From positions 1-22,750 of the IMG/VR virus record IMGVR_UViG_3300030329_004043: a stretch of DNA of 22,750 nucleotides. One strand, 5' to 3'. Position numbers and translations under genes: made by a program. Source of the DNA: a virus. Positions 5,255 through 20,862 of the stretch are shown here, piece after piece; the stretch's first letter is position 1, and each line of letters begins with the position of its first letter. Under the pieces are notes generated by a model, which had not been told where the DNA came from, did not search any database, and was given only the letters and a program-made list of their open reading frames with translations.

Positions 5255-5943
5255 CAGGGCGTATCCGAGTAAGTGCCGGGCGTGATGTAAAACGATGTTT
5301 TAGCACGGTCTTGGTCCATGGCTCGTTGAAACTCTTCATCGTAAACTTGTTTAAGAATTGGCATACGCTCTGGCGCGCGTTTCATCGCTAAATAGTAGGC
5401 AAGTCCTGCGGCTAAACACGGATAAAACCGAAAAGGGATATCGAGCGTGTCAACGGCTGCGTCTGCATCATCCATTCGGCTAAGCACGTTTAGATGCACT
5501 GAATAACCAGCTTTATCTGGACTGGGCCATACCGTAATCGTTGGTGAAATCTGCTTGTCAACGAAGAATTGGGTTGGCTTGCCAGTGCTTGTCTTTGTCG
5601 CCAAATGAGAATATTCGGCACGACTCATGCGTGTCATCGTAAGATCATTGTCGGTGGAGTTGATCGTTTCGCGGTTGAAGGCATCGAGCACATCGATTGT
5701 GGCTGTGGGATTGACCGAATCTATCGTGTAGCTAACCGTGCCGACGGACAAACTGATGATTTTTTGCTTAACAGTCCACTGGTTGAGACCACGATTGGCC
5801 CATTCTGCGAGCATAAGATTGAGACTGCGGGTGGCTGTTTTGAGATCATAACCAGTTCGAAGTTCAAGGCCAACGCGCTCAAACGCTTCCTCGACATAGT
5901 CTGCAACATCTAGTTCAAAGTTTTTACTACCGCTCGTCGCCAT
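5254..5943 (-). CDS. Head completion / tail accessory protein, P22 gp4-like
   Basis: I set the start at 5943 (229 aa). The frame is open to 6210, but that extension would overlap the upstream gene by 284 nt, and only from MATSGSKNFELDVADYVEEA onward does the protein match the typical N-terminus of this family. The helical block EEAFERVGLELRTGYD, TATRSLNLMLAEWANRGLN (residues about 18-53) is the pattern I associate with marine-phage gp4-like connectors. These proteins bind under the portal as the first ring of a short tail. The C-terminal part has a hydrophobic helix (FYPCLAAGLAYYLAMKRA) and a basic tail. The gene overlaps its neighbour upstream by 17 nt and the next by 1 nt. Confidence 0.82.
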   Translation of the reverse strand: MATSGSKNFELDVADYVEEAFERVGLELRTGYDLKTATRSLNLMLAEWANRGLNQWTVKQKIISLSVGTVSYTIDSVNPTATIDVLDAFNRETINSTDNDLTMTRMSRAEYSHLATKTSTGKPTQFFVDKQISPTITVWPSPDKAGYSVHLNVLSRMDDADAAVDTLDIPFRFYPCLAAGLAYYLAMKRAPERMPILKQVYDEEFQRAMDQDRAKTSFYITPGTYSDTP

Positions 5944-6622
5944 CCTGCCCACCCTTAGCATAAAGATTGTCGAAAGTATAGCCTGCGTCGAGGTAGCTGT
6001 CATCACTTTCTGCGTTGATAACCCACTGCGACGGCTTAAAGTCAGGCGCCCCTTCGCCTCTTTGCCACAACGCAGGATTAGTGCAGCGAACTCGGTTGTT
6101 TGGCAAGGCAATGATATTCCCAGTCCACGGTCCAGCATCTGTGAGCTCAAGAACGTGGCTTTGTTTATGCTGTGCTGGATCATCCGCGATTGAGTGATCG
6201 GTGTAGTCAACCGTAAAATAATACTTTGCGGTGTGAAATTCTCCCGCTATTTTGCAGATCCAAGGGGAGCTGCTCACACGGTCGAGCACGATGACATCGT
6301 GATGTCGCGAGCTACAATCCCATGGCTGCACTAAGTGAGCCATCATCGGCTCGGGCCAGTCTTCAAGCGGCACGTCAGCAACCAAAGCGTTGATTGGCAT
6401 CCGTGCCCACATCGCTCCGCCGTGGACATTTGGCTCGCTGTCGTCATCATAAGTTTCAGCGCCCGTGAAGACTACTTGAAAACTGAGGGATCGATCAGGA
6501 ATTGTGGTCACCGCAATAGCAAGGGCATGCAAAAACTCACCATGGTATTGCTGGTGATTATGGGTGTATTCGCGGCGAACGAAGCAGGGGAAGTGGGGAA
6601 TATTGCTTTGCAGATAACTCAT
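5927..6622 (-). CDS. Conserved phage protein, probably structural
   Basis: A 231-aa protein with a clear ribosome binding site (AGGAG, 7 nt before the ATG). It begins MSYLQSNIPHFPCFVRREYT, an N-terminus I recall from many uncultured marine phage genomes, always near tail genes. The body is mixed alpha/beta and rich in His, Asp and Trp (GGAMWARMPINALV, QPWDCSSRHHDV, GEFHTAKYYFTVDYTDHS). No membrane helix or signal is present and no catalytic motif is recognised. It sits directly before the gp4-like gene. A role in head-tail joining or as a tail component is plausible, but the biochemical function is unknown. Confidence 0.8.
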   Translation of the reverse strand: MSYLQSNIPHFPCFVRREYTHNHQQYHGEFLHALAIAVTTIPDRSLSFQVVFTGAETYDDDSEPNVHGGAMWARMPINALVADVPLEDWPEPMMAHLVQPWDCSSRHHDVIVLDRVSSSPWICKIAGEFHTAKYYFTVDYTDHSIADDPAQHKQSHVLELTDAGPWTGNIIALPNNRVRCTNPALWQRGEGAPDFKPSQWVINAESDDSYLDAGYTFDNLYAKGGQDGDER

Positions 6623-7572: not shown

Positions 7573-9074
7573 CGTCCTCGCCCCCTTCCTAGCAGTCTTC
7601 CAACATTTTGCATACGTTCTGCAAGCGCTCTTCTCACCATTTCCTGCTTGTCTGTATTTACTGGAATCTGACGACGTGCTGGTTTTAGTGGAGGAACGGT
7701 CGGCACTCTTCTCGGCATAGGCAACTGCGGCGCTCTTCTTAGATTTCTTGTGTCGGCTGGTCTGAGGCTGTCTCTCACTTCGCTTGCTCTCCCCAAAATG
7801 TCGCGCAATTTATTAAAGCCGTTTTTGTTTTGCAGCACATCGAGGGGTGGCGGCGACACAACAGGCACAGAGGTGTACACAAGTCTGCCATCTGGTCTAG
7901 GTCCACCAGCGACAATGCCTTGCGGTAATCTTGAAAGGTCTTCTGAAATCGCATCTTCAGGAATAGTTCTAGGAGCGCCTGCTGGTAGTTCTATCATGGG
8001 CGTTGGCGGAGGCGTTCTCATTTCGTCCACCCTTTTCCGCAAATTTTCAATGGCTTCTCTCGACATCAAACCGCGTCTGCCGCCCATTGGAAATTGACGT
8101 TTTGCCTCAACGCGCTGTCGATCTTCTTCGTCCATGTCGGGCATCGTTATTGTATCTGAGACTGCCTGATTTGCATTTGCCTGCGCTCTTGCAGCGTTTA
8201 TTCTGTCTTGCATATCTTGCGTTACTGTCAACCCACCGCCAAATGGCAAAGGTATGGTTGTTCCAACTGGCGGCAAACTTGGCATAGTAGGCGTTGCCAC
8301 TGGTGGTGGCGTTGTGCCTGCTTGTGCCGCTTTTGCAGCGTCAATTCTTTCTTGAATGTCGTCAGGAATTGTGAAAGAGCCGCCATAGGGCAAACGAATG
8401 ACAGTGCCCGGCGCTGGCATATTTGTCGGAGGCGTTCCAACTGGTATCGTTTCCCCAACTGGCGGCGTTGGCGGCAATGTTCCAACTGGTGGCATTGTTC
8501 CATCTGGCTGCGTTGAATCTAAAGGTGGATCTTCAAAACCAGTCATGTCAATTGGAGCATCAGGTGGAAGCGCAATACCGTACTGTTTCGCCAGATCTCT
8601 CAATCGATCTTGATCCGTGTACATCGTATTACGAATTGGGCTTGTATCTTCATTTTTGATCCACTTATAACCCAACATCGCCTCCAACTCAGCTAACGTA
8701 GTGGGCGTTTTTTTGGTGTCAATAATTGGGTCAGGCCGTTCAGGTTGCATTGGATCAGAAACTGGAACGGTTGGATCAAAAGCCTCTGGTGTGACTGGCA
8801 TTGGGTCGGGTCTGGGCGTTGGATCTGTTTGCATGGGTGGTGTAGCAGGCGGAGGCTGAGTCGCAACAGGCGGAGGCTGAGTCGCAACAGGATCACTCGG
8901 CATCGGCTGAGTTGGCATCGGCGCTGGTGCTGGTTGAGCTGGCGCTCGATCACGAACCGATGGTGGCTGCAACAAATAACTAAACGCTTCATAAGGACTG
9001 CGCCGAGGGGGTAAAGACGCCAGCGTTTCTTCATAAGAAACTGGCTTAACTAGACTTGTAATTCCATCTGACAT
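7569..9074 (-). CDS. Proline-rich protein with an internal duplication
   Basis: This 501-aa protein is dominated by Pro, Thr, Gln and Met. Residues 45-110 are a PAPAP/TQPPP-type linker. A short folded-looking block follows at 124-170 (TTLAELEAMLGYKWIKNED). A duplicated module lies at about 222-252 (GTVIRLPYGGSFTIPDDI, then QERIDAAKAAQA) and 270-299 (GTTIPLPFGGGLTVTQDM, then QDRINAARAQA). The C-terminus is Arg-rich and ends GRGRGR. There are no membrane or signal segments. The duplicated module may be a small repeated binding domain on a flexible stalk. The family is not recognised; a virion-associated role is inferred from its place in the late operon. Confidence 0.78.
   Translation of the reverse strand: MSDGITSLVKPVSYEETLASLPPRRSPYEAFSYLLQPPSVRDRAPAQPAPAPMPTQPMPSDPVATQPPPVATQPPPATPPMQTDPTPRPDPMPVTPEAFDPTVPVSDPMQPERPDPIIDTKKTPTTLAELEAMLGYKWIKNEDTSPIRNTMYTDQDRLRDLAKQYGIALPPDAPIDMTGFEDPPLDSTQPDGTMPPVGTLPPTPPVGETIPVGTPPTNMPAPGTVIRLPYGGSFTIPDDIQERIDAAKAAQAGTTPPPVATPTMPSLPPVGTTIPLPFGGGLTVTQDMQDRINAARAQANANQAVSDTITMPDMDEEDRQRVEAKRQFPMGGRRGLMSREAIENLRKRVDEMRTPPPTPMIELPAGAPRTIPEDAISEDLSRLPQGIVAGGPRPDGRLVYTSVPVVSPPPLDVLQNKNGFNKLRDILGRASEVRDSLRPADTRNLRRAPQLPMPRRVPTVPPLKPARRQIPVNTDKQEMVRRALAERMQNVGRLLGRGRGR
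8846..8887. repeat. Two 21-bp direct repeats in the proline-rich gene
   Basis: The unit starting CAGGCGGAGGCTGAGTCGCA occurs twice in tandem at 8846-8866 and 8867-8887 and encodes the ATQPPPV repeats of the flexible linker on the minus strand. The copies are exact, which points to a recent slippage event. Confidence 0.8.
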
Positions 9075-11125: not shown

Positions 11126-11980
11126 ATGGAAACAATTCAAGAATTAGCCACCTCAATTCAAGTTGCAGTCGAGAAGCTGAATGAGCGTATGCGTAAGGCT
11201 GATGAAACGCGCATGAAAAAGTTCATTGAAGCAGGCGAAAAGTGGAACGAAGGACTGTCGCCGACTATTGGCAAAAGCGGCATGACAATCCACGCGCCCT
11301 GCGATTTTTATGTTTGGGAGTACCGCGAGGGTGGTGAGCTTGTTGACGGAGAGTTTATGGCGGGTGAGTTTTTACCCATCGGCTCACAATTTGGTTTAGG
11401 CATGGGCGGCGGCGACAAAAAAGTGCGCGCGGAGTATGTGCCTGAGTGGGTGTTTTTGCATTTGAAAGAAGCGCTTAACTTAAATCGGACAGCGCCTAAT
11501 TTCGACCGAAACCGCATGGGTATGGAGCAAGGTGCGACATTTGAATATGACGGAGAACTTTGCTCGCACGTCTATTGCCGAAGCAAAGTTGTCGCTGATT
11601 TGCTTGAAGAGTTTGTTGATGCGCCTCGCAAAGTGAAGAGAGAAGAAGAAGCCAAGCGCAGAGAGGAAGAGCTCAAGCGCCGAGAGGAAGAGTTAGCTGC
11701 GGCAGAACCTGTACCATATGGTCGTATTGACGTATGCGGTGAGGTGTTAAGCGTTAAGTCGCAGGAGTCTATGTACGGTTGGACATTAAAGATGCTTGTC
11801 AAGGACAGGCGCGGTTTCAAACTGTGGGGATCTGTTCCGAGCGCCATCGATGATGTTAGTCGAGGCGATAAAATCAAGTTTACTGCTGCTGTCGAGCGAT
11901 CCAAAGATGACGAAAAGTTTGGGTTTTACAAGCGTCCCACAAAGGCAGCTTATGTTGAAAGCTTCGAAGACGTAGCATAA
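11126..11980 (+). CDS. OB-fold-like protein, possibly single-stranded nucleic-acid binding
   Basis: The gene encodes 284 aa, starting 8 nt after an AAGGAGAG site. Residues 1-45 are helical; residues 50-165 form an unrecognised domain (GMTIHAPCDFYVWEYREGG, EYVPEWVFLHLKEALNLN). Residues 168-192 are a charged helix with a 7-residue repeat (KRREEEL). Residues about 196-275 read as an OB-fold: DVCGEVLSVKSQES, YGWTLKMLVKDRRGFKLWG, RGDKIKFTAAVERSKDD, FGFYKRPTKA. That last pattern recurs in phage DNA-metabolism proteins as I remember them. It may bind DNA or RNA through the C-terminal domain. Its stop codon lies at the edge of the shared terminator hairpin. Confidence 0.8.
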   Translation: METIQELATSIQVAVEKLNERMRKADETRMKKFIEAGEKWNEGLSPTIGKSGMTIHAPCDFYVWEYREGGELVDGEFMAGEFLPIGSQFGLGMGGGDKKVRAEYVPEWVFLHLKEALNLNRTAPNFDRNRMGMEQGATFEYDGELCSHVYCRSKVVADLLEEFVDAPRKVKREEEAKRREEELKRREEELAAAEPVPYGRIDVCGEVLSVKSQESMYGWTLKMLVKDRRGFKLWGSVPSAIDDVSRGDKIKFTAAVERSKDDEKFGFYKRPTKAAYVESFEDVA

Positions 11981-12007
11981 AAAAAGGGGGTGCAAGCACC
12001 CCCCTTC
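11978..12007 (-). terminator. Rho-independent terminator after the capsid gene
   Basis: A perfect 7-bp G/C-rich stem (GGGGGTG at 11986-11992, loop CAAG, CACCCCC at 11997-12003) is followed on the minus strand by a run of seven T (complement of the A run 11979-11985). It lies 38 nt beyond the capsid stop codon at 12045. On the plus strand the same hairpin follows the OB-fold gene, but its downstream tract (CTTC) is poor in T, so termination there should be weaker. Confidence 0.88.
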
Positions 12008-12044
12008 AAACCCAATGCCTTTCGGCAGGGAGAGAGAAAACTCT

Positions 12045-12696
12045 CTAAGCGCCTTGTGACCCGAAGATACCTCTGAAGTCAGAGTGTCCAAACGAGTACC
12101 GCTCTCTCGACTTATATCGGAGATTGCCAGTGCTGAAATCTGGCTCCATGGTTGTTTCCATAGCAGTTCGTTGGAACATCTTCAAACCTTCACCAGCGTC
12201 GGTGACGCTTGTCAGGATGAAATAAGCATCAGGATCTGTCAGGAAGTGATTGACGGTATAACCACCCGGCAATACGCCCGTGTTACGAATAGCGTTGATA
12301 TCGTTATCCGCTGTTCCTGATCTTAGGGTCGAGTTGAGGATTCGATCAGCAACAAAAACGAGCTGTGGCGGAACCACAAGTTTTGTCGCACGAACGCTGA
12401 TAGTCAATCCACGGTCGTCCGTAAACGTCGAAATATCAATCAGATTATCCTCAAGCGATGTTTCATTAAGGTCAGCCATAGTAGTGGCACGGTTTGCCAA
12501 TGTGCCGCCTCCCGCAAGCGGGTGGTCAGTTGCAATCAAAGGCTTGCCATCACCGCCAGCAAAACTCGTCGAGAAAGCATTGTTCAGAACGCTGGCGCCC
12601 TTCACTTCCTTCGTGTTTTGCATGCTTTTAGCCAACGCTTTGACGTACCGACGCCCAAGGGAGTCATACAAATTATCTTCCAAAGCCTCTTCCGTT
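12045..12696 (-). CDS. Major capsid protein, exon 2 (C-terminal part)
   Basis: The second exon of the split capsid gene encodes residues 90-305 plus one base of codon 89. It starts after the intron's terminal G at 12697. Read from there it gives TEEALEDNLYDSLGRRYVKA, the middle of the capsid core, then NTKEVKGASVLNNAF, PLIATDHPLAGGG and the conserved C-terminus YFILTSVTDAGEGLKMFQ, ending FRGIFGSQGA. Without splicing the only start would be a TTG at 12683 with no ribosome binding site, which argues against a separate gene. The joined protein would form the HK97-type head shell. The terminator hairpin follows 38 nt beyond the stop. Confidence 0.9.
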
Positions 12697-12981
12697 CATA
12701 AGTCATCAGTTATAATGACTTTTTTGTTCAGATCGATTCGCTACTTTCGATCCCGCTCCCTTTTCAGGGAGCCGCTGCATGTCACCATGCAGATCAGACT
12801 ATATCTTCAACCGTTCTGGTTGGATGGCGCTTCCACTCGCTTGAGTGTACTCCTTTGCAGGATAGTCGTTGCACCTTCCTCTTTCGAGGCTTGGCTCAGT
12901 ATTGTCTCTTTTGAGATGTTCACTGAATTCACCATCTTATGTCCTGCGTATTCCTACGCAGCGCACCCACGGAAATTATCA
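12697..12981 (-). ncRNA. Group I intron (subgroup IA type), ORF-less, in the capsid gene
   Basis: The 285 nt fold into a full group I core on the minus strand. P1: exon C12987-U12982 pairs with G12962-G12967, with the required U·G at the splice site. P2: 12961-12955/12950-12944, GGAA loop. P3: GATGGTG 12936-12930 with CGCCATC 12829-12823. P4: 12927-12922/12900-12895. P5: 12916-12913/12908-12905. P6: 12895-12893/12875-12873 (G12895 also drawn in P4). P6a: 12889-12886/12881-12878, GAAA loop. P7: GACTAT 12867-12862 with ATAGTC 12802-12797. P7.1 (12861-12859/12854-12852, GCAA loop) and P7.2 (12847-12843/12838-12834), which mark subgroup IA. P8: 12822-12818/12812-12808. P9: 12792-12786/12781-12775, GTGA loop. 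P9.1: 12772-12767/12760-12755. P9.2: 12752-12747/12736-12731. P10: 12975-12969 with 3' exon 12689-12695. The conserved stretches GCAACGACTAT and AAGATATAGTC are typical of phage group I introns. The last base is G (12697). No endonuclease gene is inside. Splicing would be self-catalysed with guanosine. Confidence 0.94.
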
Positions 12982-13247
12982 AGCGCGAATGCTAACGCAA
13001 CAGTATCGTGCGTATAGCGGGCAGTGTAACCTTCATTTGCGTTGTCGAAAGCCACTGATTGACCTTCAGTTTTTGTTGGTGCATTACCAAAGCCAGTAAT
13101 TAACACCTCCTCCTCGAATGCTCGCTGCGAATCCTCGATTGCAAAAATCTCCTCATACTCATTAACGTATGAATCGTAGGACTGCCCAAACAAAGCATTG
13201 AGGCCGGGTTCCAACTCTTTTGCGAGCTGTGCTCTTGAAATAGCCAT
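12982..13247 (-). CDS. Major capsid protein, exon 1 (N-terminal part)
   Basis: The first exon encodes residues 1-88 and two bases of codon 89 of the major head protein. AGGAGG lies 12 nt before the ATG. The protein starts MAISRAQLAKELEPGLNALF and continues with EYEEIFAIEDSQRAFEEE, TKTEGQSVAFDNANEGYTAR and THDTVALAFAL, a pattern typical of marine-phage capsid proteins distantly like Mu gpT. The frame continues into the intron for eight more codons and stops at 12956-12954. Joining at U12982/A12696 gives CTA-ACG-GAA, that is ALAFAL-TEEALEDNLYD, the expected uninterrupted core. The spliced product is 305 aa (266 + 652 nt). It follows the decoration gene by 16 nt and is probably the most highly expressed virion gene. 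Confidence 0.9.
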
Positions 13248-13263
13248 TGTCTAAAGCCTCCTG

Positions 13264-13848
13264 TTATGCTAATCCAGCGCCTTTGACGCCAAATACGTGG
13301 TTTTGAATCACACAGAGAACATTAGTCGCGTCAGCCGACACGTCAGAATTTTCTGGATCTTCCGAAATGTCGATAACTTTCACCGACAGCGTAGTGCCCG
13401 TTCCACCATCGGCAACATTCAACTCAGCACCTGAAATACCAGTGCTTGTGCTTCCAGCGGTAGTGTAGACAATATCGAAGTTTCCGAACAAGTCTGCGAT
13501 CGGGAATGCAGCGTTACACTGAATCTCGAACACAACCGACGGATCATCGATTATAAATGCGATTATATCGCTTGCGTTTGTGGACGCGGGATAGAAATTA
13601 CTAAACACTTGCTCCGACGTTGTCGGATCTGTGTACATGCACCCATTAAAAACTCCTACGATTGGGACGGTGCCACCGTCGGCATGTACTTCTACAGTAC
13701 CTCCAGTGACCTGAGCTACCATATCGCCTTGAAAAATTGATGTTCCATAGTTCGCGGCAATGCGGTATCGGGATTGTCCACCCGTGTAGGGAGCGCCACC
13801 GATCATGCGGATCGGCTTCATGCCAAATGCAGCATCTTGATTAGCCAT
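13264..13848 (-). CDS. Probable head decoration protein
   Basis: A 194-aa protein whose ATG directly follows the previous stop codon, with a strong AAGGAGG site inside the preceding gene. The sequence (MANQDAAFGMKPIRMIGG, then YRIAANYGTSIFQGDMVAQV) and its beta-rich, Gly/Thr-rich body without long helices are typical of proteins encoded just before the major capsid protein in marine phages. These are assumed to be head decoration or minor head proteins. The acidic segment IDISEDPENSDVSADA is near residue 160. No protease or other catalytic motif is seen. The function is inferred from position and composition. Confidence 0.8.
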   Translation of the reverse strand: MANQDAAFGMKPIRMIGGAPYTGGQSRYRIAANYGTSIFQGDMVAQVTGGTVEVHADGGTVPIVGVFNGCMYTDPTTSEQVFSNFYPASTNASDIIAFIIDDPSVVFEIQCNAAFPIADLFGNFDIVYTTAGSTSTGISGAELNVADGGTGTTLSVKVIDISEDPENSDVSADATNVLCVIQNHVFGVKGAGLA

Positions 13849-14322: not shown

Positions 14323-15227
14323 CCTGTTTGCCTCATCTCTATCTTCTGCTTTTCACGGGCGACTTTTTGCAACCATGCTTTGTCGTCCTCGCCATGCGGT
14401 TTTAGAGCCAAAGCTCTTTCCATTTCCGACTGAGTGAACTTCACGCCGTTTTTTCCCTGTGTTTTTTGTCGCCCCGAGGGGGCGGAGGCAACTCTTTGCA
14501 CCGAGGGTTGCTTTTCCGATTGCTCGACAGGTTGTTCATTCACTAAATTAGGATACTTACTTTTTATCGATTGGTCCAGTTTTTCGTAATATTCTTCAGA
14601 ATCTACTTCAACACCTTGCGCTGCGAGCATGTTGTGATTGAATAACGCCCACATAGATGCCTCATTATGTTCTTCTGAGTCGCTGTTTCCTGTGGCGTCA
14701 AACCAAGCGTTCCGCTCTGCCCATTCGACAGCCTGATCAGAAGGTTTTATTTGTTTAGGTGCTTGCGGTTGAGCTTGCGGTTGCGCCTGCGGCTGTTCTA
14801 CGACCTGCGATTGCGCTTGTTGTGCGCCTTGTCCAGCTCGCATCTTCGCAACACGCAATCTTTCTTTTTGAATGCTCACGTCATTTTTCAAAGTAGTGGC
14901 TTTGCTCATCAAATCTGGGTCACCTGACTCAAAAGCTTTTCGATAAATATCATCTACTTGAGCCTCTTTGCTGGTCAGAGCTTCCTCTTCTTTCTCAAGA
15001 ACAGTGCTCTGTTGCGAAACGGCATATTGTTTGTATTGCTGCAACTCAGCATCTTTCTGCTTTGCAAGTTGCTCAAGGTAGGATGCCCGTTCTTCGGCGT
15101 CCCGAGCTTTTTTCTTTTCTTTGTTGACGCGCTGGCTTACCTCGCGCGTATAGCTGTCCAGCTCATCTTTCGGATCTGAATCCTGAACGTGGATTTCAAG
15201 TTCTTGCTGCTGCTCTTCTTCACTCAT
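14319..15227 (-). CDS. Putative scaffolding protein
   Basis: A 302-aa, strongly charged protein between the co-chaperonin and the capsid genes, where scaffolds usually lie. Residues 1-20 are acidic. Residues about 24-130 are a long Lys/Glu/Gln-rich coiled coil. Residues 134-160 are a Gln/Pro linker (QAQPQAQPQAPK). A folded-looking block follows (AVEWAERNAWFDATGNSD, residues 166-183, up to about 230). The basic C-terminus (FTQSEMERALALKPHGEDD, WLQKVAREKQKIEMRQTG) would suit binding to the capsid protein. The layout (acidic start, coil, basic helical end) is typical of scaffolds, which guide head assembly and then leave the head. No protease domain is seen. It overlaps the GroES-like gene by 4 nt. 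Confidence 0.78.
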   Translation of the reverse strand: MSEEEQQQELEIHVQDSDPKDELDSYTREVSQRVNKEKKKARDAEERASYLEQLAKQKDAELQQYKQYAVSQQSTVLEKEEEALTSKEAQVDDIYRKAFESGDPDLMSKATTLKNDVSIQKERLRVAKMRAGQGAQQAQSQVVEQPQAQPQAQPQAPKQIKPSDQAVEWAERNAWFDATGNSDSEEHNEASMWALFNHNMLAAQGVEVDSEEYYEKLDQSIKSKYPNLVNEQPVEQSEKQPSVQRVASAPSGRQKTQGKNGVKFTQSEMERALALKPHGEDDKAWLQKVAREKQKIEMRQTG

Positions 15228-15664
15228 CGAAAACTCACTATGTCAGTCGGTTCAAGTAACGTGGCAATCACTTCATCGTCATTTATGATGCGTGCCTCCA
15301 TAAATTCTGTCTTGTCGCCTTCTTCGATGGGGACTTTAAAACGAGCCCCAGCATATCGACCTATGGCAATCCAGTCGCCTTCGGCGCACCATGGTGTTGT
15401 CCCATACTTTTTCTCGTCATCGTAGCACGTCGGACCCATACGAATAACCTTGGCAACGACAGAGGCAAGCTGCTCCCGCTCGCGTGTCTCCTTTGTGAGC
15501 GCAATACCGCCAGCCGATTTGCTTTCACCAAAAAAGGGAATGACCAAAAGCCGCCAACCTGTGGGTTGAGGCAGACGATCAATTGCATTTTTGTCTAGAA
15601 GTGAAGGATCAAGAACTCTTTCTTTTTCCGCCACGTAAGGCGTTTTTAATTTGAGTTTGCTCAT
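15224..15664 (-). CDS. GroES-like co-chaperonin
   Basis: This 146-aa protein carries the co-chaperonin fold pattern: LPQPTGWRLLVIPF (residues 31-44), then a mobile-loop sequence KSAGGIALTKETRER (49-63), a strand LASVVAKVIRMG (66-77), and WCAEGDWIAIGRYAGARFK (92-110). GroES proteins bind GroEL through a hydrophobic tripeptide in this loop (IVL in E. coli); here it is IAL at residues 54-56, so GroEL contact is plausible. The protein is longer than cellular GroES (about 97 aa), with extra residues at the start and an insert at 80-91. No GroEL gene is in the window, so it would act with the host's. Lying next to scaffold and capsid genes, it probably assists capsid protein folding, as T4 gp31 does. 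Confidence 0.87.
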   Translation of the reverse strand: MSKLKLKTPYVAEKERVLDPSLLDKNAIDRLPQPTGWRLLVIPFFGESKSAGGIALTKETREREQLASVVAKVIRMGPTCYDDEKKYGTTPWCAEGDWIAIGRYAGARFKVPIEEGDKTEFMEARIINDDEVIATLLEPTDIVSFR

Positions 15665-16327: not shown

Positions 16328-16456
16328 TCAAGTTTTGTCGTAGTACATCAGTCCTTTTGTCGCGGCACCTGTGCCACGAGTTTTTTTCTTCGTTGCCTTT
16401 TTTTTCACAAAAGGCACATCCATTTTTTTTATCTTACTCAAATCTTTGACTTTCAT
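16328..16456 (-). CDS. Very small basic protein (42 aa) coupled to portal
   Basis: The ATG at 16456 shares its first base with the portal stop (TGATG), and the frame ends in TGA at 16328. The product starts MKVKDLSKIKKMDVPFVKKK and ends RGTGAATKGLMYYDKT. A Lys-rich start with a Gly/Ala/Thr-rich end is a pattern I recall for mini-proteins directly after portal genes in marine phages. The overlap and tight packing support translation. The function is unknown. Confidence 0.72.
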   Translation of the reverse strand: MKVKDLSKIKKMDVPFVKKKATKKKTRGTGAATKGLMYYDKT

Positions 16457-18948
16457 CATGCTGCTCCTCGTTTGTTTTGCAAATCAAGCAGTTTCAAATT
16501 TGCTTGCTGATCAAGCCGAGCTATCGCAACATCAAGTTTGTCTTTGGCAATATCCCGACTAGTGTCGATTCGTTCTTTCTCCAAAACATTTTTGGCCTCT
16601 TGCTCCGCTGCTCTTTGCCCTTGTTTGGCAGCAAACTGGTCGTTGTCCAATTCAATTTGTTTCTCACGCAGATCAAGTTCTCTCTGCCTAATTTCAACCA
16701 ATGGGTCGGTTTCGTTGTCCTGACCAAGCGAGGTTATCAGAGAACCGCTCATTTCTGCAAGAATCGGAGCAGCAATTTGAGCTTGCGCTTGCTGACCTAA
16801 TTGCACCACCGCTTGAATGAGGTCTGGGGGCACCGCTTGCCCCGACTCAATGAGAGCCTGCAGCTCGGTCTGCTGCGCGACTATTTCTTCAGGCATGCGC
16901 TCGACCGCAATTTGTTCTGCCAAAAACTGTAAATGCTGCATCATGTGTGCAATCAACTGACCTTGCAAAGCAGGGTTTTCCGTTACAACTTTCGTCATAA
17001 ACAGAGATCGATGCGCGTTGATGTGGGCAATATGATCCTGCTCTGGGAAAGCCTGTGCAGGCTGACCCAGAATCAATGCAGCATTTTCCAATCCCGCTTC
17101 CACAGGTTGTGGCGGTTGAGGTTCTGCGGGGGGCTGCAAAAGCGACTCTACGTCATCAACGCCAAGCGCTGCATACATGCGGCGGTATGCTTCGTAAATG
17201 CCGTTTGGCCCATGTATCTCGGGATTGCTCTGCACCATGGCGAGCAGTTCCTGCGCCATCGTAATTCTTTGGCTCTGCGAAAATATGTTGGGATCAGAAA
17301 CTGGCACCACGTCCACACGATCATCAAAGTCAAGTGATTTAATTTCTTGTGGCGCGCTACCCGTCACATAGGGATACACGGGTGGCAAATATTCCTGAAA
17401 GACTCTTGCGAGCAGTTGGAACTCAAGTTTTTGAGCATAGTGCAACCGTTTGTGAATAGCGCTCATCACCTTTGTGCCGCGTTCCAACAGCGCAACAGTT
17501 GTGCCAACGGGCATGGCTTGATTCATATCGCCTACGTTCATGTCTGCAATCGACGCAAAGCGTTTGCCGCTTTCAACGAGCAAGCCGAGTAAGGACATTA
17601 AAACATTTGAGGGTTCTTTGATCGGAAGGGGAATAAGATTTTCTCGTAGACTAGATCCAGTGGTGTCAATATCTCGGAACTCGCCGGGCTGGAGCGGTTC
17701 ATCTTCATCGCGAATCCGCATGCCGCGTGCTTTGAAGCCTGCGGGTAGATTTGCCAAAGTCCCAGCGTCGATGAGCTGACGCAATATCGAAGTGCTGGCT
17801 TTCGACAAGCCGCCGATCATGTGGCTCAAGCCAAGTCCGTAAAAACCAAGCCCCGGCAAGAACTTGTATTGCACGAAATAATTAATTTTGTTTTTCAAAG
17901 GATCATCAGGTCGGTAGTTGCGACGAATTGATAACACTTTCTGTGACGGCTCATCAATTGTCACGATGTAGGGCAGCTTCAAACCCGTTGTTTTACCTGA
18001 CTCATCCGTGTCCTCAAAATTTGGCAGATCAAGAACAGTATGCACTTCGAACACCGTGCGATCCCGCTCTTCCATGTAAGTCGGCGAGGTGCCTTCGATG
18101 TCATCAATTGTTTTCTCTATTTCATCTTGCGTGATGTTGCCGCCATCACCGGTCAGTTCAATATTCGCGTAGAAACCGCTTAACTGCTGTTTCTTGATTT
18201 CGTTTTTGCTCATCGAAAGAACATGAGTTACACGCTCTGCGCCACTCAAATCTGCAGCGTCATAGGGCACAATTAAATTTTCTGGCTCAATAAATTTAGA
18301 TATTGCTCGATTTTGGCTTACGTCGTAATAAACTTTTTTGAAAGCACTGCCAGCTATCGGAAGATAGAACAAGAGCATGTCCAGTTCGGGGTCATAATCT
18401 TGCATCACGTTCATGATGTAAAAATTCATGAACTGCTGCACACGCTCGGCTTGTGCATCCACTTCTGCGGTGCGAGCTCCAATGACTTCGGTTTTGACTG
18501 GACCAGTGGCAGGCAACAACTCTTTGTATGCCTGAGCTTGAAACTGCGTCACACTTTCCGCCAAGATTGGGTGAATAACACCGCTTGATCCCTCAAACGG
18601 CTGCGAACGCATTTTCTCGAATTTCATGCCGAGATATTTAAGTCCGTCAATGTACGTTTCTTCCCAGTCTTTGCGGGATTCTTTGTCTGCCTTAATTGAT
18701 CGAACGACGGAGCTTGCTAGATTAAGCAGTTCAGATGAAGTCAGTTCATCAACAAGATTCGCATCAAAATCTATTTGGGGAAGCTCCTCAACCTCATCGT
18801 CGAGAACAAGTTCTGACTCGGTAACTAGTATTTCAGCGGCATTTCTAAGTAGCTCTGCATCGGTGGGTTCAATTTCAACCTCGGTAATGCTGCCTGTGTC
18901 GATTACATCAGGATTGTTCTCAGTGCCTGTAATTGTATCAATTGCCAT
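16456..18948 (-). CDS. Portal protein
   Basis: This 830-aa protein directly follows the terminase (shared base TGATG) and has the size of podovirus portal proteins, which form the DNA entry ring at one head vertex. Residues 1-60 are acidic. The core begins near residue 85 (KADKESRKDWEETYIDGLKY), with FEGSSGVIHPILAESVTQFQ and KELLPATGPVKTEV, typical of portals of this group. Later come KINYFVQYKFLPGLGFYGLG and GGLSKASTSILRQLIDAG (wing and stem region), then TTVALLERGTKVMSAIHKRL. The C-terminus (from about 620) is a Pro/Gln-rich segment and a long charged helix (EIRQRELDLREKQIELDND) that may form the barrel. Confidence is high from order and pattern. Confidence 0.93.
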   Translation of the reverse strand: MAIDTITGTENNPDVIDTGSITEVEIEPTDAELLRNAAEILVTESELVLDDEVEELPQIDFDANLVDELTSSELLNLASSVVRSIKADKESRKDWEETYIDGLKYLGMKFEKMRSQPFEGSSGVIHPILAESVTQFQAQAYKELLPATGPVKTEVIGARTAEVDAQAERVQQFMNFYIMNVMQDYDPELDMLLFYLPIAGSAFKKVYYDVSQNRAISKFIEPENLIVPYDAADLSGAERVTHVLSMSKNEIKKQQLSGFYANIELTGDGGNITQDEIEKTIDDIEGTSPTYMEERDRTVFEVHTVLDLPNFEDTDESGKTTGLKLPYIVTIDEPSQKVLSIRRNYRPDDPLKNKINYFVQYKFLPGLGFYGLGLSHMIGGLSKASTSILRQLIDAGTLANLPAGFKARGMRIRDEDEPLQPGEFRDIDTTGSSLRENLIPLPIKEPSNVLMSLLGLLVESGKRFASIADMNVGDMNQAMPVGTTVALLERGTKVMSAIHKRLHYAQKLEFQLLARVFQEYLPPVYPYVTGSAPQEIKSLDFDDRVDVVPVSDPNIFSQSQRITMAQELLAMVQSNPEIHGPNGIYEAYRRMYAALGVDDVESLLQPPAEPQPPQPVEAGLENAALILGQPAQAFPEQDHIAHINAHRSLFMTKVVTENPALQGQLIAHMMQHLQFLAEQIAVERMPEEIVAQQTELQALIESGQAVPPDLIQAVVQLGQQAQAQIAAPILAEMSGSLITSLGQDNETDPLVEIRQRELDLREKQIELDNDQFAAKQGQRAAEQEAKNVLEKERIDTSRDIAKDKLDVAIARLDQQANLKLLDLQNKRGAA

Positions 18949-20393
18949 CAGTAATATACTCGTCTGTCTTTTCTGAGAAACTGAATTTCATCGGGATAAT
19001 CAGTATCAAGCTGCAAAAACCCGCCCTGCCTAAACCGCATCAGCGCCATGGTCGCGCTATCGCAATAATCATCATGGTCGCCGAACGGGAAGCTCGCCAT
19101 CTCTTCGACAACTTCTTCGGCAAACTGATCGTCCGTCGCCCACACCATACCAGATTCGAAAATTGGCGCAACTGAATTCATTCGAGCTACTTTATCTTGT
19201 CCTCGACTCGGCGCATAGCTTGTGACGGGGATACCCATTCTTCTCAATTCCTGCGTAAGCGGCGTGCCACTCGCTTTGGCTTCAATTAGAACGCAGTCAG
19301 GCTCCCAATATTTGTATTCGTCCCAAGCAAGTCTTTTCAGCTCTGGAAAGTCAAGTCGCAACCGTTTTGCGTCAAGTAAGATGATTTGATCTGTGCCGCC
19401 TTCCTCTGGCTGAAAAACCGCCCAAGTTGTAATTGCTGAATAATCAGCCGTTTCTTTTTTGCTGAAAGCCGTGTCATATGATTGAATGATGTAGCTATAG
19501 GGCGGTATGTCAGGAGACTCCCACATTTGCCACCACTCTCGCTTGACGATCGACCCTGACTCCGCCGTCGGTGTCTGCAGCCACTGGGCGTTCCATTTTG
19601 AAATCGGCAGAGACGCTTTTACTGACAAAAGCTCTTCTTTTTTCCAGAACTCAGGCCACAGCGGGTTGTCGGTTTCAGGCATGATCGCAGGGAACTCGAT
19701 TAGATCCCATTGATCCGCGTGCTCTTCGCCTTGTCTTTTGATGACCTTGCCAACCAAATCTTTTGTGGACCATCGTGTCATGACGATGATGATGATCCCG
19801 CCCGGCTGCAATCGTTGTCGGGGTCCACTGGTGTACCACTCATACGCGGCATCCATCGCGGTCGGAGACATGGCATCTTGTTCACTGTGCGGGTCATCGA
19901 TAATCAAAAGATCGGCTCCGCGCCCAGTGATTGCACCACCAACCCCTGCGTAGAAACTTTCGCCATCTTGATTGGTGGTCCATCTTCCCGCGCTTTTGTT
20001 GTCGGCTTGCAGATACAAATCTGGGAATATTTCTTTGTATTTTTCACTATCAATTAAATTTCTGACCCGCCTGCCGAAGCGAACCGCAAGTTCTGCCGTA
20101 TGCGTCGTCTGGATGATTTTTGAGTTACCTTTTAGCCCCATGTACCAAGCGGGAAAGAAGGTAGAGGCAAATTCCGATTTTGTGTGCCTCGGGGGCAAGC
20201 AAACAATCAACCGCTTCAGTTTGCCTTGGGCAATTTTGTTAAATTTCTCTGCGATGACTTTGTGGTGCCGACCTTGCACAAAGTCAGGCCACATATGGTT
20301 AATAAAAGCCATGAAGTCTTTTTGACATTTGTCACGCTTGACGAGCTCGTCATATTTATTCAGTAGAATGACAGCTTCAGATCTTTCTTGCAT
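18948..20393 (-). CDS. terL: Terminase large subunit
   Basis: The ATPase-nuclease motor that packs DNA into the head through the portal. I set the start at 20393 (481 aa, MQERSEAVILLNKYDELV). The frame is open to 20555, but that would overlap the lysozyme gene by 137 nt. Motifs by the short numbering: a deviant Walker A PPRHTKS at 67-73; Walker B LLIIDDP at 162-168; coupling motif region IIIIVMTRWS near 190-199; nuclease acidic residues Asp307 (QSYDTAF), Glu371 (VLIEAKASG) and the cluster GDHDDYCDS at 438-446. All key residues seem present. There is no strong ribosome binding site before 20393. No small terminase gene is visible in the window. Confidence 0.93.
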   Translation of the reverse strand: MQERSEAVILLNKYDELVKRDKCQKDFMAFINHMWPDFVQGRHHKVIAEKFNKIAQGKLKRLIVCLPPRHTKSEFASTFFPAWYMGLKGNSKIIQTTHTAELAVRFGRRVRNLIDSEKYKEIFPDLYLQADNKSAGRWTTNQDGESFYAGVGGAITGRGADLLIIDDPHSEQDAMSPTAMDAAYEWYTSGPRQRLQPGGIIIIVMTRWSTKDLVGKVIKRQGEEHADQWDLIEFPAIMPETDNPLWPEFWKKEELLSVKASLPISKWNAQWLQTPTAESGSIVKREWWQMWESPDIPPYSYIIQSYDTAFSKKETADYSAITTWAVFQPEEGGTDQIILLDAKRLRLDFPELKRLAWDEYKYWEPDCVLIEAKASGTPLTQELRRMGIPVTSYAPSRGQDKVARMNSVAPIFESGMVWATDDQFAEEVVEEMASFPFGDHDDYCDSATMALMRFRQGGFLQLDTDYPDEIQFLRKDRRVYY

Positions 20394-20418
20394 CGAAAGA
20401 ACGTCAAGATCTTTCAAC

Positions 20419-20862
20419 TCAAATGTGCTCCCACTCTTTGCCTTGCCATAGCAGAGCTTCTGCCGCGCGTCTTCTGACAAGCCCCTGCACCACTTCACCG
20501 CTCGCCCGATTCCATCTTCGCATTTCGGTTGGCACGTCTGAGAATTGCCTGTCATTAATTCTTTTCAAAAGCGTTGATTCTTTCAAATTGGTTGGTCCTA
20601 AATTGAAAGTCCAAGCTACTAAGGCATCAAATTGATTTTGATCAAGAGGCACGTTCACATATTTATGCACATATTTTTCGAACTCAAACAAGTCCTCCAC
20701 AAGCGTCTCCTCCGCCTGCTCTTGCGTGCAAGAATCACCCTCTTTCACGCCACGAGTGTGCCCAAATCCAAGCGTCCACACGTCAGCGCTGCACAAGTAG
20801 GATTCCAGTTTGCAGCCTTCAAATTTTTTTATAAGCGCAACACCTTCGGCACTAGTTTTCAT
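20419..20862 (-). CDS. Endolysin, GH24 lysozyme (phage type)
   Basis: A 147-aa lysozyme that cuts the glycan strands of peptidoglycan. The GH24 signature Glu-x8-Asp/Cys-x5-Thr is exact: Glu15, Cys24 and Thr30 in FEGCKLESYLCSADVW, followed by TLGFGHT. Further family blocks are NQFDALVAWTFNLG (residues 77-90), LLKRIN and the C-terminal RRWNRASGEVVQGLVRRRAAE (split at 114-134). There is no signal peptide or anchor helix, so release depends on a holin; holin-like genes are just upstream. The start overlaps the previous stop by 4 nt. The length is normal for the T4/P22 type. Confidence 0.93.
   Translation of the reverse strand: MKTSAEGVALIKKFEGCKLESYLCSADVWTLGFGHTRGVKEGDSCTQEQAEETLVEDLFEFEKYVHKYVNVPLDQNQFDALVAWTFNLGPTNLKESTLLKRINDRQFSDVPTEMRRWNRASGEVVQGLVRRRAAEALLWQGKEWEHI

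Follow-up and report, generated by a model that had tools for sequence, protein, structure and literature searches.

A predicted group I intron lineage without its own endonuclease in the major capsid gene of related uncultured phages

We analysed a 22,750-nt stretch of viral DNA (the window) in which the major capsid gene is interrupted by a 285-nt insert. Taken together, the evidence best fits a group I intron that is spliced and belongs to a capsid-resident lineage without an endonuclease, gained and lost repeatedly and with an internal guide that changes along with the exon; we regard this reading as almost certain. The identity of the intron, its boundaries, the empty site, covariation in its helices, a scattered distribution and one co-conversion-like tract can all be read from the sequences compared below.

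The capsid gene lies on the minus strand of the window within a block of virion genes that also includes the terminase large subunit, the portal and virion proteins (Table 1). When its exons are joined without 12981–12697, translation yields 305 aa with no stop, reading ALAFALTEEALEDNLYD across the junction; the unspliced frame from 13247 runs into a stop after DNFRGCAA, 8 residues beyond residue 89. Both Phage_capsid_4 of Pfam and phrog_371 (major head protein) match the joined protein, and the first-pass annotation was thus right to place the insert in a major capsid gene. The junction it had proposed, 12982/12696, is correct to the base: in blastn against the window, the blocks of an uninterrupted relative (L001) break exactly at 12982 and 12696, positions that are contiguous (724/725) in L001.

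Table 1. Coordinates of the capsid gene, neighbouring virion genes, the intron and its helices in the window
Feature	Position	Strand	Remarks
Major capsid gene, exon 1	12982..13247	-	88 codons plus 2 nt; ends CGCGCT
Major capsid gene, exon 2	12045..12696	-	including stop codon; begins AACGGA at 12696
Terminase large subunit	18948-20555	-	
Portal	16456-18948	-	
Group I intron (predicted), 285 nt	12697..12981	-	RF00028; preceded by exon U, terminal G, no internal gene
P1	12962..12987	-	exon 12987-12982 with internal guide 12967-12962; U·G at 5′ splice site
P10, intron strand	12969..12975	-	pairs with 3′ exon 12695-12689; 7 pairs, one U·G
P3	12823..12936	-	12936-12930 with 12829-12823; encloses P4-P6a, P7 5′ strand, P7.1, P7.2
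P7, guanosine-binding helix	12797..12867	-	12867-12862 with 12802-12797; six pairs
P9, P9.1, P9.2 and terminal hairpin	12700..12792	-	hairpin 12721-12715 with 12706-12700; from fold and alignment

Among the matches listed, the capsid is uninterrupted across the site in 80 of 80 relatives, none of which aligns across the insert as protein. Of these, 76 are read from residue 1 and four enter at a contig edge before residue 89; four other relatives, which end early at a contig end, are outside the 80. Searching the whole records of the 80 for the Rfam intron gave no match (0/80), a value that we rejected as an intron frequency because the listed relatives lacked intron carriers with as much as 87% identity in exon 2, and one with 100%. 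The gene is also in one piece across the site in 21/21 phage records. The named phages nearest by capsid are DSL-LC04 (65.5%) and then 023Pt_psg01 (61.9%), and further matches are to Pelagibacter phages HTVC023P and HTVC027P (~60%) and Roseobacter phages CRP-902 and CRP-901 (57–59%).

Several other features of the window were recorded. A GC-rich hairpin with A/T runs at 11979–12023, terminator-like on sight and with a chance-level Rfam match, sits between the capsid gene and a convergent plus-strand gene ending at 11980. On the minus strand, 15224–15664 encodes a Cpn10-like protein (22.3 bits against a Pfam cut-off of 21.1), possibly a phage co-chaperonin near the capsid gene, and 5927–6622, within the virion gene block, matches phrog_3704 ‘ferredoxin’ (E 2.7e-28).

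The insert had been described as a complete group I intron, and covariance search agrees: Rfam RF00028 (Intron_gpI) matches 12991–12775 with 90.9 bits (gathering score 50, E 2e-22) over model positions 1–253 of 253, and is the sole gathering-level Rfam RNA in the window. The fold of the insert has a calculated energy of –99.9 kcal/mol, compared with –68.7 (sd 5.1) in 200 shuffles (z –6.1). Helices P1, P2, P3, P4-P6a, P7, P7.1, P7.2, P8, P9 and P10 could all be written out on the window sequence, as the proposed P1–P10 fold with IA-type layout implied. Between the strands of P7 lie P7.1, P7.2, the 3′ strand of P3 and P8; P7.1 and P7.2 follow the 5′ strand of P7 and precede the 3′ strand of P3, a placement that marks subgroup IA. 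P7.1 and P7.2 are named as class features in PMC3984707. The other details given for the fold are likewise present, namely a six-pair P7, a U·G pair at the 5′ splice site, a terminal G, a 7-pair P10 (one pair being U·G) and, judged by eye from the sequence, GNRA loops on P2, P6a, P7.1 and P9. The only correction concerns P3, which has the seven pairs claimed for it but is not perfect, one of them being U·G. On the grounds of sequence and predicted structure, 12697–12981 is confirmed as a group I intron with an IA-type layout. No endonuclease frame is found inside the 285 nt, which leave no room for one.

A 22-nt segment of the intron core occurs in 99 viral contig stretches, 25 of which hold the window's capsid gene at the core, and a second pattern search added two intron-bearing capsid loci (L184 and L185). 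One of the 99, L151, was rejected as a capsid locus and not counted, its match being remote (29%) and away from the core. The second pattern, ‘exon-2 start not preceded by T’, returned 11 loci (5 with intron, 5 intronless capsids and one unclear, L182), and another search returned 49 loci, in which the only window-type capsid among the new ones (L215–L245) was L229, which covers the exon-2 side on the L087 contig. An Rfam intron match above the cut-off was obtained in 26 of the 28 records tested; the two misses are L132, where the intron is cut by the contig end, and L182, which has no clear capsid.

Both exons are readable in 26 loci including the window (25 other viral contigs), which represent 19 distinct sequences over the intron plus 14–16 nt of exon; one of them, L202, is identical to the window over exons and intron. 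The insertion site is the same in 24 of the 26 (the window and 23 others), with the exon ending in U and the intron in G. In the remaining two, L196 and L197, the ends as read by eye fit a site 7 nt upstream under the same U/G rules. Across these 26 loci intron length is 257–288 nt, and the terminal hairpin is absent in L201, L196 and L197. In blastn comparisons 27 capsid loci match the window intron at 84–100% over 206–290 nt, some being cut by contig or locus ends; among the matches listed, the best one outside the capsid loci is at 83% over 138 nt, and the longest is at 73% over 161 nt. From these comparisons the intron is not a singleton and appears as a lineage in one capsid gene across related phages, carrying no endonuclease of its own.

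Some loci showed peculiarities. In L203, from the record of L184, nine bases are missing downstream of the 5′ splice site, which makes the P1 loop very short; its intron is possibly a degenerating or minimal copy. The intronless capsid L187 has a frame break near residue 79, and two bacterial MAG contigs (L246 and L247) contain the same 22-nt intron core. In L184 an Rfam Mu-gpT-DE RNA (8043–8096, 58.6 bits) lies ~100 nt downstream of the capsid gene; a search for this RNA at E 1 in window positions 11800–13400 gave no match.

To count pairs we used 16 distinct copies of the intron; L196, L197 and L203 were dropped, as their P1/P10 columns were not alignable. In these copies 97.9% of 1375 cells are paired. 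Two-sided changes affect 21 of 89 pairs, whereas shuffled data average 8.1 (none of 500 shuffles reached 21) and slid controls give 1 to 4. Further pair types were no more numerous than in shuffles (374/500 as high). P7 is unchanged in 16/16 copies, P7.1 and P7.2 both contain two-sided changes, and 77.5% of P9.1 is paired. The notion that an assembly artefact joined an intron from a foreign phage into the capsid gene, to which the origin of the sequence from a virus contig and not from a known complete genome would lend itself, is vanishingly improbable: the same insertion is present in other contigs, identical in L202 and in others diverged, their exon and intron bases having changed together, and the diverged copies at the same site rule it out.

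The helices that involve the exons vary in a similarly coordinated way. All six pairs of P1 are formed in 16/16 rows, including the splice-site U·G (16/16), and two of them carry two-sided changes: the third base before the splice site takes part in a G-C, A-U or G·U pair, and the second in C-G or U-A. P10 has 5 to 7 pairs across the 16 rows, with 92.9% of cells paired and one pair appearing as C-G, U-A or G-C; one outer pair fails in 6/16 rows. The covarying exon positions change no amino acid (Ala GCG/GCA, Leu CTN/TTR, Thr ACN); it is RNA pairing and not the protein that explains the choice of bases. Each of the 16 guides pairs 6/6 with its own exon. The fit is not very exclusive: the window guide also pairs 6/6 with 35 of the 80 intronless exon ends among the relatives listed, and 98 of 174 guide swaps between intron rows with different exon ends still pair 6/6.

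Based on this structure, we infer that the intron is spliced out of the capsid transcript. The transcript would fold, and a P7-bound guanosine would attack past CGCGCU, at the 5′ splice site marked by the U·G pair in P1; the freed exon would then attack after the terminal G of the intron, guided by P10, and CGCGCU would be joined to AACGGA in an intact message for the 305-aa capsid. L203 demonstrates that losses at the 5′ end do arise in the lineage, and one might picture a decayed, non-splicing remnant, its fold inherited but inactive, in a phage that either is itself defective or makes do with a truncated piece of the capsid. We consider this very improbable, given that P7 is invariant and every P1 pair is formed in 16/16 copies, which also show compensatory changes, that exon 2 is open and alignable to relatives along its full length, and that translation of an unspliced message would end 8 residues into the insert. 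A domesticated intron that regulates capsid expression depending on conditions, instead of being a neutral passenger, also seems improbable, if a little less so. Capsid genes are usually highly expressed, and residence in one, like a guide that changes with the exon, would suit such a role, but its presence and absence among close relatives (L193 and L024) argue against a needed function, and the window holds no other gathering-level Rfam family.

We examined the distribution of the intron on a tree built from the exon-2 protein only, for which 105 of 111 loci gave at least 200 aligned residues; after merging 19 identical proteins, 86 rows remained, 15 of them with intron. Intron presence requires 9 changes on this tree, of which supported branches force 8. 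Changes are undercounted, because the intronless L024 was merged with the intron-bearing L199. The scatter of presence among close relatives points to repeated gain or loss of the intron, with at least 8 changes. Presence is at the same time more clustered than expected by chance (shuffled mean 14.1 changes, 0/500 as low), and the distances between introns follow those between exons (r 0.81, 17 loci), indicating that part of the inheritance is vertical. The mean distance between introns (0.093) is lower than that between exons (0.260).

The pair L193 (with intron) and L024 (without) is especially informative, as their capsids differ at 0/302 residues. At the nucleotide level, 54 of 300 positions within 150 nt of the insertion are mismatched (18%), compared with 8 of 564 beyond (1.4%; Fisher p 1e-18), the 150-nt limit having been picked after viewing the mismatch profile. 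On the 5′ side there are 39/150 mismatches and then 6/114 (~5%), with scattered differences continuing beyond the gene start; on the 3′ side there are 15/150 and then 2/450, with none from 125 to 535. The tract resembles what would be left by an intron copied in together with flanking exon, and we call it co-conversion-like. L199 shares the event seen in L193, and between these two intron carriers, too, differences are denser near the site (0.060 vs 0.023). Another pair with and without intron, L191/L020, shows no tract (p 0.21). Among intronless control pairs, 2/21 have p below 0.001, both with clusters weaker than that of L193/L024. Only pairs with flanks of 264 and 600 nt, one or more mismatches and no more than 10% mismatch outside the tract entered this test. 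Co-conversion has been described for phage introns in PMC2988022.

No match to HNH_3, GIY-YIG, HNH, phrog_59 or LAGLIDADG_1 was found in 12/12 contigs including the window, some of 43, 49 and 56 kb and possibly partial; the count rests on these five families, whose controls matched, and Endonuclease_7 was left out as its control was silent. Transfer would thus be through recombination, either with an endonuclease supplied in trans or by plain recombination of co-infecting phages. The second route, with the intron as a passenger and no endonuclease involved, is compatible with the overall reading and has, in our view, somewhat less than an even chance. The five families without a match, the mismatch clusters in 2/21 intronless pairs and the tractless pair L191/L020 fit it well, but the insertion sits at the middle of the L193/L024 tract, none of the 21 control pairs has a cluster as strong, a minimum of 8 changes on a single tree is a large number for passive spread, and an endonuclease located elsewhere could have been missed if contigs are partial. 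Collaborative or trans homing is described in PMC2988022. A more elaborate proposal, which we hold to be rather unlikely, is that the lineage is specialised on the phage capsid gene and kept there by such collaborative homing: an unlinked or competitor endonuclease would cut intronless alleles, repair would copy the intron with ~150 nt of exon on each side, the guide would re-adapt to synonymous drift, and the two sites 7 nt apart would reflect a site-shifting step.

Our literature searches, mostly outside subscription journals, listed no report of an intron in the window's capsid family. As far as these searches show, the capsid family, the two insertion sites, the guide co-variation and the natural tract are new. 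The lineage offers a clear comparative setting in which a predicted self-splicing intron endures in a gene usually expressed strongly by phages; its hosts are uncultured phages with capsids similar to those of Pelagibacter and Roseobacter phages. Alleles with and without intron encode the same protein, making intron gain, exon co-conversion and guide–exon co-evolution directly testable. The case is also a warning that automatic annotation may split capsid genes.

A second type of capsid gene (DUF5309 by annotation of some matches) carries introns with the same core. In L130, an intron of 257 nt lies in the region 1018–1361 after codon 29 (sites read by eye), at a position that fits where the capsid of the related MW202879 continues. 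Exon 2 of this capsid is matched by 29 of the other 74 core loci, namely L130 and 28 more, 26 at 83–100% (one of these matches spans only 21 residues) and 3 at ~32%; it starts 79 nt after the core in 25 loci and 84 nt after it in 3, L140 being irregular. A major head protein family, phrog_1328, is matched by 24/71 frames downstream of the core. Among the matches listed, relatives of L130 show ~72–74% identity to the window intron over 124–125 nt, L130 itself not being one of them. The L130 type shares with the window the 22-nt core, an interrupted major capsid gene and an intron too short for an endonuclease gene, while its capsid family and insertion site are different. As a second capsid type also carries introns with this core, capsid genes are a recurrent home for the window's intron type.

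At the DNA level, other phage group I introns have the same core, with ~70–81% identity over 48–65% of the window intron in the best 30 of 1254 matches; unlike in the window, some of those 30 are annotated in other host genes, namely DNA polymerase, DnaB-like helicase or terminase. None of the 1254 covers 80% of the intron. In Roseobacter phage CRP-7 (MK613349), positions 36990–37160 are 72.7% identical to the window intron (E 1e-18) and bear no annotated feature; by this similarity the segment is probably an unannotated intron. The first-pass annotation had considered an intron in a capsid gene unusual, which holds only weakly, since, besides the second capsid type above, published cases exist in LittleE, Tuc2009 and crAss-like phages. 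The major capsid gene of mycobacteriophage LittleE contains an intron, most likely group I, for which PMC3706429 reports splicing by RT-PCR and N-terminal protein sequence and cites Tuc2009 as a capsid intron case. Compared by that description, LittleE and the window both have an intron in the major capsid gene, an exon ending in U, an intron ending in G, and close relatives lacking it; the LittleE intron differs in being ~820 nt long, in having a frame for an HNH endonuclease on its other strand, and in belonging to another host group. Group I introns also occur in MCP genes of crAss-like phages, according to PMC7886860; these resemble the window in host gene, but were found mainly via endonuclease domains, number up to 14 per genome and come from gut phages. 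Viewed beside these systems, the window's intron is a real, probably mobile element of an already known kind.
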